Origin: Hymenobacter canadensis
GTDB taxonomy: Bacteria; Bacteroidota; Bacteroidia; Cytophagales; Hymenobacteraceae
Direction of reading: 5' to 3'
Length of the DNA: 64,000 bases
NCBI RefSeq assembly: GCF_027359925.1
Contig: NZ_CP114767.1
Coordinates: 1,860,001 to 1,924,000, forward strand
Shown: positions 21,025 to 28,544 of the stretch, in pieces
Layout: every line of letters begins with the position of its first letter
How positions within the stretch are numbered: position 1 is the stretch's first letter
Program-made: the position numbers and the translations under genes
The notes under the pieces: model-generated
The model's input: the letters and a program-made list of their open reading frames with translations, nothing else
Databases searched by the model: none
Told to the model about the DNA's origin: nothing

Positions 21025-21443
21025 AGTTGGCAGGCAAGGTGTACCCTGTAAGACTAGAATGCGCGGCCGTAGGTTACATGAAGTTTCCGCTACCACCGCT
21101 GAAAAGCAGTTTTCTGAGGTCAGTTTTCGCCCAAAAGCCGCCAGCATTTCTCTCCCTGAACGGGGCCTGCCGGGGCTGTTTCGGCGACGCCGTTCGAGAG
21201 GCTGTGGCCAGCTCAGCCGCTGTGGCAAACTGCCCGGCCAGACGTAGGGCATGGCAGCAGATTCTGCGCTTTGCAAGGCTGCCTGCGCGTCATTTTTTCA
21301 GGCATTTGCCGCACATCCTGCATCACTCTTCACAGTCCGAACACCTTTATTATTTCCTGTTCAAAATACTGAAAACAAACGCATTAACTCATAATACAAA
21401 ATCTCAGCACCGCACTGTAAAAGCCCTCATCACAAAATATAAT

Positions 21444-21475
21444 TTGGAAGTGTAAAATTTCAACTTCTACCTTTG
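21444..21475 (+). promoter_or_regulatory. Bacteroidota-type promoter of the sulfate operon
   Basis: TTG at 21444-21446 and TACCTTTG at 21468-21475, with 21 bases between, match the TTTG-N19-21-TAnnTTTG consensus of the main Bacteroidota sigma factor. The riboswitch begins 30 bases downstream. The region between the SDR start (21024) and here contains no gene; its last 150 bases are AT-rich. Confidence 0.75.
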
Positions 21476-21504
21476 TGCCACCAATTCTTTACCCCCCGAA
21501 AGGA

Positions 21505-21602
21505 TTGTTTTTATACAGAGGCGTGGAGAGACAGGCTCGACGAAACGCCGGCAACCAGCGGACCTTCCGAAACGGTGCCAAGTCCTGACCATATAAAAAC
21601 AA
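21505..21602 (+). promoter_or_regulatory. SAM-I (S-box) riboswitch
   Basis: The P1 stem is perfect over 11 bp: ttgtttttata (21505-21515) with tataaaaacaa (21592-21602). Inside is the S-box core: agaggcgtggagagacag, then gctcgacgaaacgccggcaa and cc, then a variable arm and ggtgccaagtcctga. These match the SAM-I consensus (GUGGAGGGACUGGCCCGAUGAAACCCGGCAACC ... GGUGCCAAUUCCUG) in order. S-box RNAs bind S-adenosylmethionine and turn off sulfur-amino-acid genes. Here the 3' P1 strand ends 6 bases before a GTG that opens a short Cys/Met-rich frame, so P1 formation could hide the A-rich initiation region of that frame. Confidence 0.93.
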
Positions 21603-21608
21603 CAAGCC

Positions 21609-21707
21609 GTGAAATCCTTGTTCAACACCGCCACCGTTTCCGCTACCTTCTGTGCCGTACAGCATGGATGTTGTGGTATGCGAGGCATGGGCTGTTGTCA
21701 GGGCTAG
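21609..21707 (+). CDS. Possible Cys/Met-rich leader peptide, 32 aa
   Basis: GTG 21609-21611 to TAG 21705-21707. The translation is short with a basic start (MKSLFNTATVSATFCAVQ) and the ending HGCCGMRGMGCCQG: five Cys, including two Cys-Cys pairs, and two internal Met within the last 18 residues. It begins 7 bases past the SAM riboswitch, is preceded in frame by TAA, and has an A-rich upstream region as expected for Bacteroidota initiation. The gap to cysH is 205 bases and contains potential hairpins. The gene has no recognised homologue; a sulfur-sensing leader peptide is the obvious reading, but translation is unproven. Confidence 0.55.
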   Translation: MKSLFNTATVSATFCAVQHGCCGMRGMGCCQG

Positions 21708-21912
21708 GCACGCTCCCGTTTTCCTGGTTTGTGCGCCGCCTGCCGCTGAGCTGACTTGCGCGTTTTCGCCGTTGGCCAGGGGAACCGCACGCCCTTTTCT
21801 GTTGCGCCGAAAACCGCGCTGCGCCGCTGCGTAGGCCGTTTTCGCCGAAACCATCTTCCGGCCGGAATGCCCTTGCCCCAGGCGGGCCCCTTCCTCCTCA
21901 CCCTTCCTGCTC

Positions 21913-22698
21913 ATGTCCGTAGCTGATGCTGCGCCGGCCGCCCACGCCTTGCTGGACCGCCTGCGCCCTCACCTGGTGGCCGCCTACGCCCTGGAGCGGC
22001 TGCGTCTGGTGGCCGACACCTTCCCCGGTCAGGCCGTTTTTTCCACCTCTTTCGGGCTGGAAGACCAGATTATCAGCCACCTGATTTTCACCCACGACCT
22101 GCCCATTGCGGTGTTCACCCTCGATACCGGTCGCAACTTCCAGGAAACCTATTCCACCTGGAACAAGACGCTGATCCGGTACCAGAAGCCCATTGCGGTG
22201 TACGCCCCGCAGCGCGAGGACCTGGAAAACCTGCTTCTGCAGAAAGGCCCGAACTCGTTCTACGAGAGCGTGGACAACCGCAAGGAGTGCTGCCACATCC
22301 GCAAGGTGGAGCCCCTCAGCCGGGCCCTGGCCGGCCGCGGGGCCTGGGTCACCGGCATCCGGGCCGAACAATCCCAGAACCGGCAGACCATGGACCCGCT
22401 GGAGTGGGACGCGGCGCACAACCTCGTCAAGATCCACCCGCTCTTCGACTGGACCTGGGAGCAGGCGCTGGCCTTCGTGCAGCGGGAGGGCATTCCGGTG
22501 AACCCGCTGCATCAGCAGGGTTTCGTGAGCATCGGCTGCGCCCCCTGCACCCGCGCCATCAAGCCCGGCGAGGATTTCCGGGCCGGCCGCTGGTGGTGGG
22601 AGGACCTCGCGGCCAAGGAGTGCGGCCTGCACGCCACCACTCATCACGACGGCCCCGACCCGGTGGTGGAGCCGGTACCAAACCACATGTCATCCTGA
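21913..22698 (+). CDS. cysH: Adenylylsulfate/phosphoadenylylsulfate reductase
   Basis: 261 aa from ATG 21913. Reduces activated sulfate to sulfite in the cytoplasm. Cys pairs at 126-127 (ECCHIRK) and 209/212 (GCAPC) are the [4Fe-4S] ligands of the APS-reductase type, which needs no CysC; none is in the window. FSTSFGLEDQI carries the PP-loop-like start and LDTGRNFQETY is conserved. The reactive Cys lies in KECGLH (C237). First structural gene behind the riboswitch. The last four codons and the stop (ATG TCA TCC TGA) lie inside an intergenic repeat, so the C-terminal end was probably replaced by repeat insertion. Confidence 0.93.
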   Translation: MSVADAAPAAHALLDRLRPHLVAAYALERLRLVADTFPGQAVFSTSFGLEDQIISHLIFTHDLPIAVFTLDTGRNFQETYSTWNKTLIRYQKPIAVYAPQREDLENLLLQKGPNSFYESVDNRKECCHIRKVEPLSRALAGRGAWVTGIRAEQSQNRQTMDPLEWDAAHNLVKIHPLFDWTWEQALAFVQREGIPVNPLHQQGFVSIGCAPCTRAIKPGEDFRAGRWWWEDLAAKECGLHATTHHDGPDPVVEPVPNHMSS

Positions 22699-22845: not shown

Positions 22846-23754
22846 ATGAGTACCACTTTCGATTACCTCGACCGGCTGGAAGCCGAAGCCATCCACATCC
22901 TGCGGGAGGTGGCGGGGCAGTTTGAGCGGCCGGCCCTGCTGTTTTCGGGCGGTAAGGATTCCATTGTGCTGACGCGCCTGGCCGAAAAGGCCTTCCGCCC
23001 CGGCCGCTTCCCCTTTCCGCTGGTGCACGTGGATACCGGCCACAACTTCCCCGAAGTGCTGCAGTACCGCGACCTGCTGGCCGCCCAGCTGGGCGAAAAG
23101 CTGGTGGTGCGCAAAGTGGAGGACACCATTCAGCGCCAGCGCCTGCGCGAGCCGGGCGGCAAGTTCCCCAGCCGCAACCCGCTGCAGACCTATACGCTGC
23201 TGGAGGTGATTGAGGAGTTCGAGTTCGACGCCTGCATCGGCGGGGCGCGGCGCGACGAGGAGAAGGCCCGGGCCAAGGAGCGCATCTTCTCGGTGCGCGA
23301 CGAGTTTGGCCAGTGGGACCCCAAGCGCCAGCGCCCCGAGCTCTGGAATATCTACAACGGCCGCATCCAGAAGGGCGAAAACGTGCGCGTGTTCCCCATT
23401 TCCAACTGGACGGAGCTGGACGTGTGGCGCTATATCCAGCGCGAAAACATTCCGCTGCCCGACATCTACTTCGGCCACGAGCGCACCTGCGTGGTGCTGC
23501 CCTCGGGCCAACTGCTGGGCCTTTCGGAGCATTTGCAGCTGGATGCCGAAGACGAAATCGTGACCCGGCAGGTGCGCTTCCGCACCGTGGGCGACTCCAC
23601 CTGCACGGCCGCCGTGGAAAGCGACGCCGCCACCGTGGAGGACATCATCCAGGACCTGCTGCTGGCCAAAGTAAGCGAGCGGGGCGCCACCCGCCTCGAT
23701 GATAACATCTCCGAAGCCGGCATGGAAGACCGCAAGCGCAACGGGTATTTCTAA
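22846..23754 (+). CDS. cysD: Sulfate adenylyltransferase subunit 2
   Basis: 302 aa from ATG 22846 (MSTTFDYLDRLEAEAIHI). With CysN it forms ATP sulfurylase, making APS from sulfate and ATP. It shows the PP-loop motif FSGGKDSIVLTRLAEKAF (residues about 31-48), VDTGHNFPEVLQYRD, CIGGARRDEEKARAKER and TCTAAVESDAATVEDII. Length is standard (about 300 aa). It lies 24 bases after the family C repeat and is in the same operon as cysH and cysN; family A and C repeats fill the gaps on either side. Confidence 0.95.
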   Translation: MSTTFDYLDRLEAEAIHILREVAGQFERPALLFSGGKDSIVLTRLAEKAFRPGRFPFPLVHVDTGHNFPEVLQYRDLLAAQLGEKLVVRKVEDTIQRQRLREPGGKFPSRNPLQTYTLLEVIEEFEFDACIGGARRDEEKARAKERIFSVRDEFGQWDPKRQRPELWNIYNGRIQKGENVRVFPISNWTELDVWRYIQRENIPLPDIYFGHERTCVVLPSGQLLGLSEHLQLDAEDEIVTRQVRFRTVGDSTCTAAVESDAATVEDIIQDLLLAKVSERGATRLDDNISEAGMEDRKRNGYF

Positions 23755-23937: not shown

Positions 23938-25227
23938 ATGGACTTACTTCGATTTATTACCTGCGGCAGCGTGGATGACGGCAAGAGCACCCTGATCGGG
24001 CGGCTGCTGTACGATTCGGAATCCGTGTCGCTGGACGTGCTGGCGGCGCTGGAGAAGCGGCAGGCTTCCAACGGCACCGTGGACCTGGCTTTGCTGACGG
24101 ACGGCCTGCGGGCCGAGCGCGAGCAGGGCATCACCATCGACGTGGCCTACAAGTACTTCACCACCCCACGCCGCAAGTTCATCATCACCGATGCACCCGG
24201 CCACGTGCAGTACACCCGCAACATGGTAACGGGCGCCAGCAATGCCGACCTGGCCATTGTGCTGGTGGATGCGCGCCAGGGCGTGATTGAGCAAACCCGC
24301 CGCCACACCCTGATTGCGGCCCTGCTGGGCATCCGCCACTTCGTGCTGGCCGTGAATAAGATGGACCTGGTGAACTACGACGAGGCCGTTTTCGACCGCA
24401 TTGCCACCGACTACGCCGAGCTCACCAACCACTTCAACCTGCCCGCCGCCACGGCCATTCCGCTCAGCGCTTTGCAGGGCGACAACGTGGTGAAGCCCAG
24501 CCAGCACCTGCCCTGGTACACCGGCCCGAGCCTGCTGGCGCACCTGGAAAGCGTGCCCGGCGCGGTGGAAACCAAGTTTGCCCCGCGCTTCCAGGTGCAG
24601 TACGTGATTCGGCCCCAGACGCCCGAGCTGCCCGATTACCGCGGCTACGCCGGCCAGGTGCTGAGTGGTGAGTACCGCCGGGGCCAGCGCGTGCGGGTGT
24701 ACCCGTCGGGCCTGGAATCGGAAATCGAGGCCATCGAAGTCAACCAGCAGGAAGTGGAGGTGGCTCACGCGCCCCAGCCCGTGGTTATCCGGCTGCGCGA
24801 CGACGTGGACGTGAGCCGGGGCGACGCTCTGGTGCCGGCCGGCCCGCAGGCGCCCACCCTCACCCGCGAGCTGGAAGCCACCCTGTGCTGGATGAGCGAG
24901 CAGCCCCTCTGGCCCGGCCGCAAGCTGCTGGTGCAGCACCATTCCACCCTCACGAAGGCGGCCGTTTCGGCCATCCTCTACAAGGTGAACGTGCACACCT
25001 TCGCCAAAGCAGCTGCCGAGCAGGCCCAGCTCAACGACATCGTGCGCATCCGTCTCAAAACGGCCCTGCCCCTGGCCCTCGACCTCTACCAGGAAAATCG
25101 CGCCACCGGCTCCTTCATCCTGGTGGATGAGCTGACCGGCGACACCCTGGCCGCCGGCCTCGTGGAAGCTGCCAACTCCGACTACTTCACCACCCCGGTG
25201 CAGCCCCCGGTAGCCTTTTCCATTTAG
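23938..25227 (+). CDS. cysN: Sulfate adenylyltransferase subunit 1 (GTPase)
   Basis: 429 aa from ATG 23938 (MDLLRFITCGSVDDGKST). EF-Tu-like GTPase that drives the CysD reaction. It has the P-loop GSVDDGKSTLIGRLL, the DAPGHVQYTRNMVTG switch II region and NKMDLV, followed by two beta-barrel domains. No APS kinase (CysC) domain is fused at the C-terminus, unlike CysNC proteins, in line with the APS-reductase type of CysH. It ends at 25227 and is followed by the minisatellite-bearing repeat. Confidence 0.95.
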   Translation: MDLLRFITCGSVDDGKSTLIGRLLYDSESVSLDVLAALEKRQASNGTVDLALLTDGLRAEREQGITIDVAYKYFTTPRRKFIITDAPGHVQYTRNMVTGASNADLAIVLVDARQGVIEQTRRHTLIAALLGIRHFVLAVNKMDLVNYDEAVFDRIATDYAELTNHFNLPAATAIPLSALQGDNVVKPSQHLPWYTGPSLLAHLESVPGAVETKFAPRFQVQYVIRPQTPELPDYRGYAGQVLSGEYRRGQRVRVYPSGLESEIEAIEVNQQEVEVAHAPQPVVIRLRDDVDVSRGDALVPAGPQAPTLTRELEATLCWMSEQPLWPGRKLLVQHHSTLTKAAVSAILYKVNVHTFAKAAAEQAQLNDIVRIRLKTALPLALDLYQENRATGSFILVDELTGDTLAAGLVEAANSDYFTTPVQPPVAFSI

Positions 25228-25245: not shown

Positions 25246-25648
25246 AGAACGTCATGCTGAGCGAAGCCGAAGGCGCAGTCGAAGGCGCAGTCGAAGGCGC
25301 AGTCGAAGGCGCAGTCGAAGGCGCAGTCGAAGGCGCAGTCGAAGGCGCAGTCGAAGGCGCAGTCGAAGGCGCAGTCGAAGGCGCAGTCGAAGGCGCAGTC
25401 GAAGGCGCAGTCGAAGGCGCAGTCGAAGGCGCAGTCGAAGGCGCAGTCGAAGGCGCAGTCGAAGGCGCAGTCGAAGGCGCAGTCGAAGGCGCAGTCGAAG
25501 GCGCAGTCGAAGGCGCAGTCGAAGGCGCAGTCGAAGGCGCAGTCGAAGCATCTCTACCGCAATGGTAACCCTGATGTCTGATTAGTCCTGCAACGAAGCG
25601 GTAGAGATGCTTCGACTGCGGCTGCGCCTTCGCTCAGCATGACGTTCT
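25246..25648. repeat. Family B repeat containing a 12-bp minisatellite
   Basis: The outer arms are agaacgtcatgctgagcgaag and cttcgctcagcatgacgttct. Around the centre, gcatctctaccgc faces gcggtagagatgc. The left arm is expanded by the 12-mer array, while the right arm has a single cttcgactgcggctgcgc. It separates cysN and cobA. Confidence 0.9.
25268..25543. repeat. 23 perfect copies of the 12-mer cgaaggcgcagt
   Basis: 276 bases make exactly 23 copies with no substitution. The array begins within the left arm of a family B repeat. All frames without stops (Arg-Ser, Glu-Gly-Ala-Val, Arg-Leu) are by-products. Identity of all copies points to a young or actively homogenised expansion. Confidence 0.97.
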
Positions 25649-25685: not shown

Positions 25686-26447
25686 ATGACAACGCCCCGC
25701 CTTACGGTACTCGGTGCCGGCCCCGGCGACCCGGAGCTGCTCACGCTCAAAGGGGCGCGAGTGCTGGCCGAAGCCGATGTGATTCTCTACGACGCCCTGG
25801 CCAACCGCGCCCTGCTACAGCACGCCCGCCCCGAGGCCGTGCTGGTGCCGGTGGGCAAGCGGCGCGGCATGCGCAGCCACTCGCAGGACGACATCAACGC
25901 CCTGATTGTAGACTACGCCCGCCGCTACGGCCACGTGGTGCGCCTCAAGGGCGGCGACCCGTTCGTGTTCGGGCGCGGCCGGGAGGAAATGCTCTACGCC
26001 GAAGCCCACGGCCTGCTCACGGACTACGTGCCCGGCATCAGCAGCGCGGTGGCCGCGGCCGGGGCGGCGGGCATCCCGGTCACGCACCGGGGCCTGAGCG
26101 AAGGATTCCGGGTGATTACGGCCACCACCGCCACCGGCGAGCTGGCCGGCAGCATCCGGGAAGCCGCCCGCGACGCCCGCGGCACCACCGTGATTCTGAT
26201 GGGCCTGGGCGAGCTGTCGCGCATCGTGCGGGCGTTCTGTGAGCAGGGCCACGCCGGGATGCCGGCCGCCATCATCCAGAACGGCACCCTGCCCCACGCC
26301 CGCCTGGTCACAGGCCCGGTAGCCGAGCTGCCCGCCCGCGCCGCCGCCGCCGAAATCGGGGCCCCGGCCATCATCATCATCGGCGAGGTAACGCGCCTGG
26401 CCACCCCGCAGAAGCTGGCGCTGCTGCCGGCGCTGTACGCGGCCTGA
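25686..26447 (+). CDS. cobA: Uroporphyrinogen-III C-methyltransferase
   Basis: 253 aa from ATG 25686 (MTTPRLTVLGAGPGDPEL). Adds two methyl groups from SAM to uroporphyrinogen III, giving precorrin-2, first step to siroheme. Family motifs: GAGPGDPELLTLKG, VPVGKRRGMRSHSQDDIN, RLKGGDPFVFGRGREE and PGISSAVAAAGAAGIPVTHRG. A stand-alone SUMT domain, without the CysG dehydrogenase/chelatase part, which instead sits in the fusion at 34042. Placed between cysN and cysJ, so siroheme is made alongside its user, CysI. The start follows a short copy of the word-family sequence caccaagcactaac. Confidence 0.95.
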   Translation: MTTPRLTVLGAGPGDPELLTLKGARVLAEADVILYDALANRALLQHARPEAVLVPVGKRRGMRSHSQDDINALIVDYARRYGHVVRLKGGDPFVFGRGREEMLYAEAHGLLTDYVPGISSAVAAAGAAGIPVTHRGLSEGFRVITATTATGELAGSIREAARDARGTTVILMGLGELSRIVRAFCEQGHAGMPAAIIQNGTLPHARLVTGPVAELPARAAAAEIGAPAIIIIGEVTRLATPQKLALLPALYAA

Positions 26448-26469: not shown

Positions 26470-26650
26470 AGAACGTCATGCTGAGCATGTGGCGCATCAA
26501 GCCAGCGTCCGGAGGCGAAGTCGAAGCATCTCTACCGCTGGCTAATCAGATAGCAGCACCCATAACCGCGCCATAGCCTAGGGTTTGAACCCTGGGCTAC
26601 TGAACCGCCACAACGAAGCGGTAGAGATGCTTCGGCAAGCTCAGCATGAC
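26470..26650. repeat. Family B repeat with nested family E hairpin
   Basis: Arms agaacgtcatgctgagc and gctcagcatgac. The left arm has an inserted module gagcatgtggcgcatcaagc shared with the family A copy at 33844. In the centre, tagcctagggtttgaaccct followed by gggcta (26574-26600) is a family E hairpin. The repeat's last bases supply an ATG (26646) in frame with cysJ. Confidence 0.85.
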
Positions 26651-26699
26651 TTCTTCCTTCTCTGACGCGCCCAACCCACTGCCCCAACCACTACGTCCT

Positions 26700-28544
26700 A
26701 TGTCACTTCTTTCTGCCTCCCCCACGCTTCCCGTCGGCCTCAACGACCAGGCTTTGCAGCAGCTCACCACGGGCCTCACCGATCCGCAGCTGATCTGGCT
26801 GAGCGGCTACCTCTACGGCCGGGCCGGCGTGGCAGCGGCTCCCGTTGCGGCCGTGGCCCCGGCTCCTGCCGTGGCGGAAGCCGCCGCGGCTAGTCGGCTC
26901 ACCATTCTGTTTGGCTCCCAGACCGGCAACAGCAAGAAAGCCGCCGGCCTGGTGGCCGAGGCGGCCCGCCGCTGGGGCCTGCAGCCGCAGGTGCGCGACA
27001 TGAACGACTACCCCACCAAGGACCTCAAAACCGAGCAGCTGCTGCTAGTGGTGGTGAGCACCCAGGGCGAGGGCGACCCGCCCATGGCGGCCGAGGAGCT
27101 GCATCAGTTCCTGCTCAGCAGCCGCGCCCCCAAGCTGCCCGACCTGCAGTACGCCGTGCTGGCCCTGGGCGACAAAAGCTACCTGCAATACTGCCAGACC
27201 GGCTTCGAGTTCGACCAGCGCCTGGCCGAACTGGGCGGCCGCCGCCTCGTGGAGCGCCTCGACTGCGACGTGACCTTCGAGGACGAAACCCGCCAGTGGG
27301 CCGAGCAGGTCCTCACCCGAATTGCCGAGCTGCAGCCCGCCCCCGCGCCGGTAGCCGCCGGGGTGGCCGTAACGGCCAGCGTGGGCACCAGCTACGCGCC
27401 GGCAGTGGCCCCGCCGCCCGCCGCCGTAGAGTACAACGCCCGTAACCCCTTCGCGGCGGAGCTGCTGGAAAAGATTCAGCTCAACGGCCGGGGCTCTACC
27501 AAGGAAACCTACCACCTGGAGTTTTCCCTGGCTGATTCGGGCCTGACCTACGAGCCCGGCGACGCCCTGCTGGTGCAGCCCCGCAACCGCCCCGCCCTGG
27601 TGCAGGAAGTGCTGCAGGCCGCCCACCTGCCCGAAGCCGCCCCGGTGCGCCTCGAAGCAGAGGAGCTGGACCTGACCACGGCCCTCACGGAGCGGCTGGA
27701 GCTGTCGGTACTCACCCGCGACGTGCTGGAGCGCTACGCCGCCATAGCTCCGCAGCACGCCAGAATCCGCGAAATTCTGGCCGACAAGCCGAACCTGGGG
27801 GCCTACCTCTACGGCCGCGACGTGGCCGATTTGCTGACCGAGTTTCCGGTGGAGTTGTCGGGGCAGCAGCTGGCGGCGGTACTGCGGCCGTTGCCGGCCC
27901 GGGCCTACTCCATTGCCTCCTCGCTGGCGGCCCACCCCGAGGAAGTACACCTGACGGTGAGTGCCGTGCGCTACGAAACGAACGGCCGCGCCAAGCACGG
28001 CGCCTGCTCCGGCTACCAGGCCGACCACCTGGCCGTGGGCGAGCACGCCCGCGTTTGGGTCGACCGCAACGAGTACTTCAAGCTGCCCCCGGATGCCGCC
28101 ACCGACATCATCATGGTGGGCCCCGGCACCGGGGTGGCGCCTTTCCGGGCCTTCGTGGAGGAGCGGGCCGAAACCGGGGCCACCGGCCGCAACTGGCTGC
28201 TGTTCGGCAACCCCCACTTCACCACCGACTTCCTCTACCAGACCGAGTGGCAGCAGCACCTCAAGCGCGGCACCCTCGACCGCCTCGACCTGGCCTTCTC
28301 CCGCGACCAAACCCAGAAAATCTACGTGCAGCACCGCCTGCTGGAACAGAGCCGCCGCGTGTACGACCAGCTCGAAAGCGGCGGCCACTTCTACGTCTGC
28401 GGCGACAAGAACCGCATGGCCTCCGACGTGCAGCAGGCCCTGCTCCAGATCATCCGGCAGGAAAGCGGCCACGACGCCGACTACGCCGCCGAGTACCTGC
28501 GCCAGCTCAAAAAGTCGCGCCGGTTCCTGGAGGACGTGTATTAG
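26700..28544 (+). CDS. cysJ: NADPH-dependent sulfite reductase flavoprotein
   Basis: 614 aa from ATG 26700 (MSLLSASPTLPVGLNDQ); the in-frame ATG at 26646 lies in a repeat and is rejected. Delivers electrons from NADPH to CysI. Order: N-terminal segment, an Ala/Pro linker, flavodoxin-like FMN domain (residues about 65-205: TILFGSQTGNSKKAAGL, VVVSTQGEGDPP, LALGDKSYLQYCQTGFEFD), FAD domain with RAYSIASSLAA, and NADP domain with GPGTGVAPFRAFVEER and FYVCGDKNRMASDV near the C-terminus. These match the cysJ family throughout. It is followed by a large repeat cluster and a TonB-receptor gene before its partner cysI. Confidence 0.93.
   Translation: MSLLSASPTLPVGLNDQALQQLTTGLTDPQLIWLSGYLYGRAGVAAAPVAAVAPAPAVAEAAAASRLTILFGSQTGNSKKAAGLVAEAARRWGLQPQVRDMNDYPTKDLKTEQLLLVVVSTQGEGDPPMAAEELHQFLLSSRAPKLPDLQYAVLALGDKSYLQYCQTGFEFDQRLAELGGRRLVERLDCDVTFEDETRQWAEQVLTRIAELQPAPAPVAAGVAVTASVGTSYAPAVAPPPAAVEYNARNPFAAELLEKIQLNGRGSTKETYHLEFSLADSGLTYEPGDALLVQPRNRPALVQEVLQAAHLPEAAPVRLEAEELDLTTALTERLELSVLTRDVLERYAAIAPQHARIREILADKPNLGAYLYGRDVADLLTEFPVELSGQQLAAVLRPLPARAYSIASSLAAHPEEVHLTVSAVRYETNGRAKHGACSGYQADHLAVGEHARVWVDRNEYFKLPPDAATDIIMVGPGTGVAPFRAFVEERAETGATGRNWLLFGNPHFTTDFLYQTEWQQHLKRGTLDRLDLAFSRDQTQKIYVQHRLLEQSRRVYDQLESGGHFYVCGDKNRMASDVQQALLQIIRQESGHDADYAAEYLRQLKKSRRFLEDVY

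Follow-up and report, generated by a model that had tools for sequence, protein, structure and literature searches.

Short upstream frames rich in Cys codons have been described in several bacteria, among them the polycysteine ORFs that precede cys genes in mycobacteria (Canestrari 2020, as cited in PMC9094748 and PMC13236596), and for actinobacterial Cys-run leaders the accessible text reports no conserved terminators and suggests a role for Rho (PMC1262725). In Rhodobacterales, the uORFC-8-2 attenuator of cysS combines, according to the sections available, a conserved pair of Cys codons with what appears to be an intrinsic terminator (PMC8632094). Riboswitches can also act on upstream frames, and the Mbox and B12 riboswitches of Mycobacterium tuberculosis are described in the available excerpts as controlling uORFs, with Rho-dependent termination in the Mbox case (PMC12810186, PMC11260477). 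Bacteroidota are reported, in the part of the source at hand, to do without Shine-Dalgarno sequences, initiation depending instead on upstream A residues and mRNA structure (PMC6847099).

The locus described here lies in a 64-kb stretch of the Hymenobacter canadensis genome (the window), which contains a single SAM riboswitch by RF00162, situated upstream of the sulfur genes cysH-cysD-cysN as expected of SAM-I (Table 1). An original prediction, made from the sequence letters, had proposed a clear S-box aptamer, a GTG frame of 32 codons 6 bases behind it with a Cys/Met-rich end, and a gap of 205 bases to cysH, and each of these held. The aptamer matches the RF00162 covariance model above its gathering score (73.5 bits at 21508-21599), and SAM binding is predicted from this match. 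Its P1 consists of A/U pairs only (UUUUUAUA paired with UAUAAAAA), and the GTG of the leader ORF (21609-21707) lies 6 nt from the extended P1 and 9 nt from the Rfam end of the aptamer. The spacer at 21600-21608 and the A-rich 3' strand of P1 presumably form the initiation region of the frame, whose translation, MKSLFNTATVSATFCAVQHGCCGMRGMGCCQG, has five Cys (residues 15, 21, 22, 29 and 30) and two internal Met and matched nothing in Pfam or NCBIfam. All five Cys codons (at 21651, 21669, 21672, 21693 and 21696) are UGU, so that the window leader is a short ORF rich in end-product codons, five UGU in 32 codons, placed before cysH. The cysH start (21913) is 205 nt past the leader stop (21707) and about 310 nt from P1. 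Upstream of the aptamer is an element, TACCTTTG, of the form TAnnTTTG, which we liken to the Bacteroidota -7 consensus; within the 60 nt before P1, TAnnTTTG is present at 165 of 213 leader loci as against 4 of 142 control windows. About 130 nt separate this element from the window leader ORF, with the SAM aptamer between them. A search for sigma-70-like promoter sites in 21400-22000 gave three (0.1 in shuffles), one of which is on the + strand (21429-21458). Further downstream, between cysN and the CobA-like gene (25250-25560), there is a long tandem array in which several frames are open as GAVE or RRRS repeats.

Table 1. Features of the riboswitch, leader and cys region, in window coordinates.
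Feature	Position	Strand	Basis or remark
Promoter-like element (TAnnTTTG)	21468-21475	+	sequence
SAM-I (S-box) riboswitch aptamer	21508-21599	+	RF00162, 73.5 bits against a gathering score of 44.4, E 2.6e-15
P1 strands of the aptamer	21508-21515 with 21592-21599	+	extendable by UUG/CAA, 21505-21507 with 21600-21602
Spacer, P1 3' strand to leader start codon	21600-21608	+	
Cys-rich leader ORF	21609-21707	+	GTG start, 32 codons, TAG stop
Possible hairpin just past leader stop (GCAC with GUGC, pyrimidine-rich loop)	21708-21737	+	alignment and folds, weak evidence
Gap hairpin (GAAAAC 21809 with GUUUUC 21838)	21809-21843	+	folds of the window and five close relatives
cysH, phosphoadenylyl-sulfate reductase family	21913-22698	+	NF002537 254.9 bits, PF01507
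cysD, sulfate adenylyltransferase subunit	22846-23754	+	TIGR02039 413.7 bits
cysN, sulfate adenylyltransferase GTPase subunit	23938-25227	+	TIGR02034 524.3 bits
Tetrapyrrole methylase (CobA-like), possibly in the cys operon	25686-26447	+	PF00590
Flavodoxin/FAD/NAD reductase (sulfite reductase flavoprotein-like), possibly in the cys operon	26646-28544	+	PF00258, PF00667, PF00175

The arrangement is far more general than this one locus and recurs across genera and families in the sequences compared. The H. canadensis genome has four S-boxes, three of which are followed, 9 nt past the aptamer, by a Cys-rich ORF; the leader before an ATP-grasp gene ends GCCCCCCRA and that before an O-acetylhomoserine (OAH) sulfhydrylase-like frame ends RGCCGACCCCC. 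The frame after the ATP-grasp gene presumably encodes a protein resembling flavin-dependent (LLM) monooxygenases. The fourth S-box, whose P1 is of the GATAAG type, lacks a leader; behind it comes a frame that we take, from a sequence motif read by eye, to be metH-like. In S-boxes of this GATAAG type (L032, L001, L003 and others), a segment resembling GCTCTTCTGACTT and complementary to the P1 3' strand, AGAAGATAAG, comes between that strand and the met genes, and these S-boxes seem to use a different, perhaps transcriptional, platform. The TGY-run pattern TGYTGYTGYTGY has 254 matches elsewhere in the genome compared with 72 for the reversed pattern, and S-box-free TGY runs were rejected as leaders, there being no convincing one in five fetched stretches.

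Within the genus, a pattern comprising the aptamer tail, the 3' strand of P1 and CCRTG, allowing 3 mismatches, which asked for a start-like triplet and took no account of ORF content, matched 101 of 120 Hymenobacter genomes, and its reversed control matched none. Among the loci read, which included 30 returned with this pattern and 60 more hand-picked from the matches listed, all 94 distinct sites had an ORF behind P1, of 27-46 codons with 2-9 Cys; sites less than 200 nt from the end of a locus were excluded, and in two sites we moved the start by -1 or +3 nt. The last Cys lies 0-11 residues from the end, the stop codon usually follows the Cys run within a few codons, and the peptide outside the last 15 codons varies between gene classes. 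GTG is the start codon in 91 of these leaders and ATG in three; GTG may be a deliberately weak start. The GTG starts mostly stand in a CCGTG context, and the pattern favoured CCRTG and allowed ATG. In at least 15 Hymenobacter genomes, counted by eye among the matches listed, a pair of leader-type S-boxes on opposite strands face each other over a distance of about 16 kb (for example G030:C29:26364(+) and 42645(-); G040:C6; G110:C3).

Outside the genus, RF00162 matches were found in 79 of 80 genomes sampled from the family, 112 of 148 from the order and 167 of 198 from the phylum, and each search returned its best-scoring loci, 30 at most. The fetched loci include Cys-run leaders from other genera of Hymenobacteraceae, from six more families of the order (f2, f4, f5, f14, f15 and f22) and, at the level of the class, from another two families (L244, L245). 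In family f23, a pattern blind to Cys matched 50 of 201 genomes; an ATG ORF was found behind P1 in all 30 loci read, with at least two Cys near the end in 22 of 25 distinct leaders. A frame-blind scan for the aptamer tail, TATAAA and, 78-108 nt further on, TGYTGYTGY (one named genome per species) returned at least 120 loci, and in all 120 listed the TGY run was in frame with the first ATG/GTG ORF behind P1. By chance about one third would be expected in frame, because in the other frames TGY repeats read as Ala/Val or Leu. All 120 leaders are different. By their titles, 119 of the 120 loci listed belong to genera that we place in Bacteroidota, and one (L344) is named only 'bacterium'; they include Hymenobacter, Pontibacter, Adhaeribacter, Mucilaginibacter, Pedobacter, Daejeonella, Cyclobacterium, Marivirga, Thermoflexibacter, Saprospiraceae, Chitinophagales and Flavobacteriales, among others. 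By sequence comparison, the leader architecture is spread over Bacteroidota, mostly before sulfur-related genes. The original prediction had proposed conservation of the frame as its check, and the leader in all 94 genus sites and in frame in all 120 listed loci bears it out; loss of conservation, stops or frameshifts in relatives, which it had named as evidence against itself, were not seen in the sites read.

The aptamer and the leader go together by the type of P1. A leader with at least two Cys in its last 15 residues follows 46 of 51 A/U-type P1s compared with 9 of 99 other P1s, among loci that were fetched by aptamer score or hand-picked from those lists (L170 and L207, at contig ends, and the duplicates L030, L187 and L219 were dropped). 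Four of the nine other P1s with a leader are A/U-rich variants by eye (L160, L162, L180, L186), and one further A/U-rich variant, L184, is without Cys and is counted among the 99. The five A/U-type P1s without a Cys leader are L164, L179, L181, L195 and L228. Three of these (L179, L181 and L195, all of genus g56 in family f5) have an ORF at the usual place with no Cys run, and L185, of the same family, ends CCCH. In L164 a structural gene rather than a leader stands at the same spacing, which is what would be expected of a translational switch.

The position of P1 fits such a switch acting on the leader. Six nt is the commonest gap between the end of the extended P1 and the leader start (114 of 214 leaders), which puts the end of P1 inside the ribosome footprint, with the P1 3' strand supplying an A-rich stretch. 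This agrees with the original prediction, which had placed an A-rich start region in or just past the P1 3' strand. Folding with and without P1, also proposed there, lowered the predicted openness of positions -18 to +12 from 0.60 to 0.41 when P1 was imposed, a modelled difference that arises largely by construction. Since P1 lies over the initiation region, and initiation without Shine-Dalgarno sequences depends on upstream A residues, SAM binding should block initiation at the leader, and the leader helix geometry fits a putative ligand-dependent occlusion of the uORF initiation region.

Taken together, the comparative data are best fitted by the SAM/cysteine two-input switch acting on leader translation that had been proposed for this locus, and we consider it very probable that the region is a composite 5' leader that integrates two sulfur signals, SAM and charged tRNA-Cys. 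When SAM is bound, the A/U-rich P1 would close and cover the A-rich region before the leader start, so that leader translation would be blocked. When SAM is low, the leader would be translated, and its UGU-rich Cys codons close to the stop would stall the ribosome if charged tRNA-Cys is short. We infer from this scheme the direction of the response, in which only low SAM together with low Cys would leave a stalled ribosome on the leader and allow expression of the downstream sulfur gene, and expression would stay low at high SAM, when the leader is not translated, as well as at high Cys, when the ribosome finishes the leader and is released.

A different reading of the same parts keeps a role for the leader and its Cys codons but has the aptamer control transcription, or the translation of cysH, by a route that does not pass through the leader. 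In its favour, terminators are a common means of action of S-boxes, and other S-boxes of Bacteroidota, those of the GATAAG type, seem to stand on a different platform. We consider it improbable for the window, where no terminator is found near the aptamer and P1 is only 6-9 nt from the leader start compared with about 310 nt from cysH; the association of the A/U-type P1 with the leader also argues against it.

The peptide itself bears on what the leader is for. Among leaders whose loci were chosen without regard to Cys, 125 of 132 carry at least two Cys in the last 15 residues; once the Cys-selected scan is added the count is 210 of 217. Over these 217 leaders (Cys-selected scan included), Cys makes up 40% of the last 12 residues compared with 3.8% elsewhere, and Met 8.5% compared with 1.5%, a 5.8-fold difference. 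Conservation was assessed in 134 equal-length pairs of 60-98.5% identity from 73 leaders not selected on Cys; these pairs share sequences and ancestry, and the equal length leaves out indels. In this set Cys was kept at 1364 of 1549 positions (88%) and Met at 370 of 470 (79%), and other residues at 1322 of 2221 positions in the last 15 codons (60%) and 2920 of 4740 before them (62%). The pN/pS ratio was 0.84 in the N-terminal part and 0.43 in the last 15 codons. The leader frame and its control codons are conserved while the rest drifts. Met is both enriched and kept near the leader end and may therefore be a further signal, and Trp, Gly and Arg may be near neighbours of the Cys codons. A first conservation count on 19 cysH leaders (N 0.88, C 0.37, four invariant Cys columns) was circular, because these leaders had been picked by a pattern containing those Cys, and it was dropped.

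The genes behind the leaders were classified by motif, in any frame, and 190 of 210 leaders have a member of one of seven classes no more than 1.5 kb downstream: OAH sulfhydrylase (53), CysH (42), amino-acid permease (42), ATP-grasp (33), sulfite reductase (9), MetX (7) and OsmC (4), with 20 unclassified. The OAH sulfhydrylase and MetX labels are presumed from sequence motifs; Pfam backs the ATP-grasp, permease, sulfite reductase and OsmC labels in a single representative of each class, as well as CysH in the window. A RimK-like ATP-grasp gene (as in L033 and L397) is a frequent target (33 of 210).

These data bear on the possibility that the leader is a small Cys-rich protein acting in trans (by binding metal, thiol or sulfide) and is simply a SAM-regulated gene. 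Cys-rich C-termini could indeed bind metals or thiols, and the Mbox-controlled uORF of M. tuberculosis is reported, in the portion of the source available, to have a homologue outside its riboswitch (PMC12810186). We hold a protein of this kind to be very unlikely, since the peptide is near neutral outside its last 15 codons (pN/pS 0.84) and differs between gene classes, the leader stands directly 5' of a sulfur-related gene at most loci (190 of 210 by motif), and the window leader has no Pfam or NCBIfam match. The use of the rare UGU codon is also not explained by protein function.

That codon use is strongly biased. In GTG-start leaders 549 of 747 Cys codons are UGU, compared with 20 of 362 in the longest frames that follow at those loci, and the share of T in other NNY codons of these loci is 0.24 in the frames and 0.41 in the leaders. 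UGU is the main Cys codon in 115 of 128 such leaders, and without the Cys-selected loci it accounts for 405 of 556 Cys codons. In the window, the leader uses UGU for 5 of 5 Cys compared with 2 of 36 in eight neighbouring genes (P 2.8e-5). In ATG-start leaders the numbers are 289 of 454 compared with 56 of 145 in the frames, and the Cys codons there do not clearly exceed the remaining leader codons in this bias (P 0.06). The original prediction had proposed checking whether the Cys codons are conserved with synonymous change; the residue was conserved, and synonymous change was rare, with 648 identical and 34 synonymous codons in 682 aligned comparisons from the 134 pairs, and constraint on them at the RNA level is therefore possible. 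That the UGYUGY run is an RNA element, bound by protein or paired, and not selected as codons would fit this rarity and the complementarity of the run region to a downstream segment in Mucilaginibacter, and UGU repeats could be bound or paired, but it is scarcely credible given a run that is in frame in all 120 frame-blind loci listed (of at least 120), a stop codon that usually comes soon after, Met codons that are interspersed and kept, and pairing with downstream sequence that is not enriched.

For the step from the leader to the sulfur genes, the RNA around and past the leader stop was examined. No intrinsic terminator was found in 21400-22000, and terminator-like sites over all leaders are modestly enriched (43.8% compared with 31.2% in shuffles). 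The window transcript 21484-21960 folds no better than shuffles (z -0.43; 35 of 100 shuffles as good). Over 217 leaders, the 60 nt directly behind the stop are more stably folded than their shuffles (z -0.77, sem 0.10; z -1.33 for the ATG-start leaders), unlike the 60 nt after them (z -0.14). A possible hairpin in this segment (Table 1) is suggested by an alignment, A2, of 18 of the 19 cysH sequences (L067 left out). The first 20 nt past the stop show no enriched pairing with the next 40 nt (z -0.08), and general pairing of the Cys run with downstream RNA was rejected (217 leaders, z -0.21 relative to shuffles), also giving z 0.21 (sem 0.09) when restricted to 24 nt past the stop.

The complementary pieces in the gap to cysH, proposed in the original prediction to form alternative hairpins, do exist, but the fold is no better than shuffles and the pairing is uneven in relatives; as a conserved switch these hairpins were rejected, and support for them does not reach past the close relatives. 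For the duplex of 21758 with 21808 the energy is -19.0 in the window; the five close relatives range from -14.9 to -8.0, with the weakest pairing in L068, and the hairpin at 21809-21843 is in the minimum-energy fold of all six sequences by eye, with a variant form in L068. A layout like that of a classical attenuator is seen in Mucilaginibacter and its kin, where a segment past the stop is complementary to both the Cys-codon region and a later segment (12 of 16 sequences, omitting L384, L386 and L344, whose sequence differs at this place, and L359, which closely resembles L264). In the 1:2 and 2:3 helices 95.2% and 92.8% of cells are paired, compared with at most 69.9% in slid versions; both helices are nearly invariant, compensatory changes are absent, and the pairing does not improve on that of shuffled letters. 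Hairpins that contain the control codons and exclude one another are consistent with these 12 Mucilaginibacter-type sequences, the columns of which barely vary, and they are not general over the 217 leaders. C exceeds G past the leader stop (skew 0.137 compared with -0.024 upstream), which is in line with Rho sites in a comparison that had no proper control. As a first guess, the last step would be Rho-dependent termination steered by the structure just past the leader stop.

We also consider it likely that the leaders form a Bacteroidota-wide dual-input class in which the riboswitch gates the loading of the ribosome that is itself the second sensor, P1 doubling as the place where the ribosome lands on a leader with rare UGU Cys codons, so that the sulfur assimilation genes would be expressed only at low SAM and low charged tRNA-Cys, with Met as a possible third signal. 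If this is true, two known RNA devices are joined in one gate, a small molecule permitting the start and the ribosome reading the charge of tRNA-Cys. An A-rich initiation region placed in P1 would also explain how translational riboswitches can work in Bacteroidota without Shine-Dalgarno sequences, as these are described in the accessible part of PMC6847099. The leaders yield a ready list of target genes, some of unclear role (the ATP-grasp enzyme and the amino-acid permease), and tests could make easy use of the strong UGU bias.

With the usual SAM-I riboswitches (RF00162), the Bacteroidota loci share the aptamer core and the control of sulfur genes, but here the first frame 6-9 nt behind P1 is a Cys-rich leader ORF and not a terminator or a structural gene. 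The mycobacterial polycysteine ORFs, as far as the available accounts go, are similar in being short, with a run of Cys codons near the stop and a position before a cys operon; they belong to Actinobacteria, are leaderless by the title of Canestrari 2020 and are presented in those accounts with no mention of a riboswitch. In contrast, the Bacteroidota leader ORF starts behind a SAM aptamer, and the window ORF is apparently not leaderless, with the aptamer upstream and about 130 nt to the promoter-like element. The uORFC-8-2 element, as described in the available sections, resembles the Bacteroidota leaders in its tandem Cys codons and is unlike them in its apparent intrinsic terminator, those sections mentioning no riboswitch (PMC8632094). 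The Mbox and B12 systems of M. tuberculosis offer a likeness that we propose for the Bacteroidota leaders, namely a riboswitch acting through uORF translation; they respond to other ligands, and the excerpts available describe neither amino-acid-specific stall codons nor a second metabolite input. Cys-run leaders and riboswitch-controlled uORFs are each known; for a SAM riboswitch joined to a Cys leader we found no earlier account among the entries listed from the open-licence literature, which is no proof of absence in print, and it is this combination that we regard as the new part of the arrangement.
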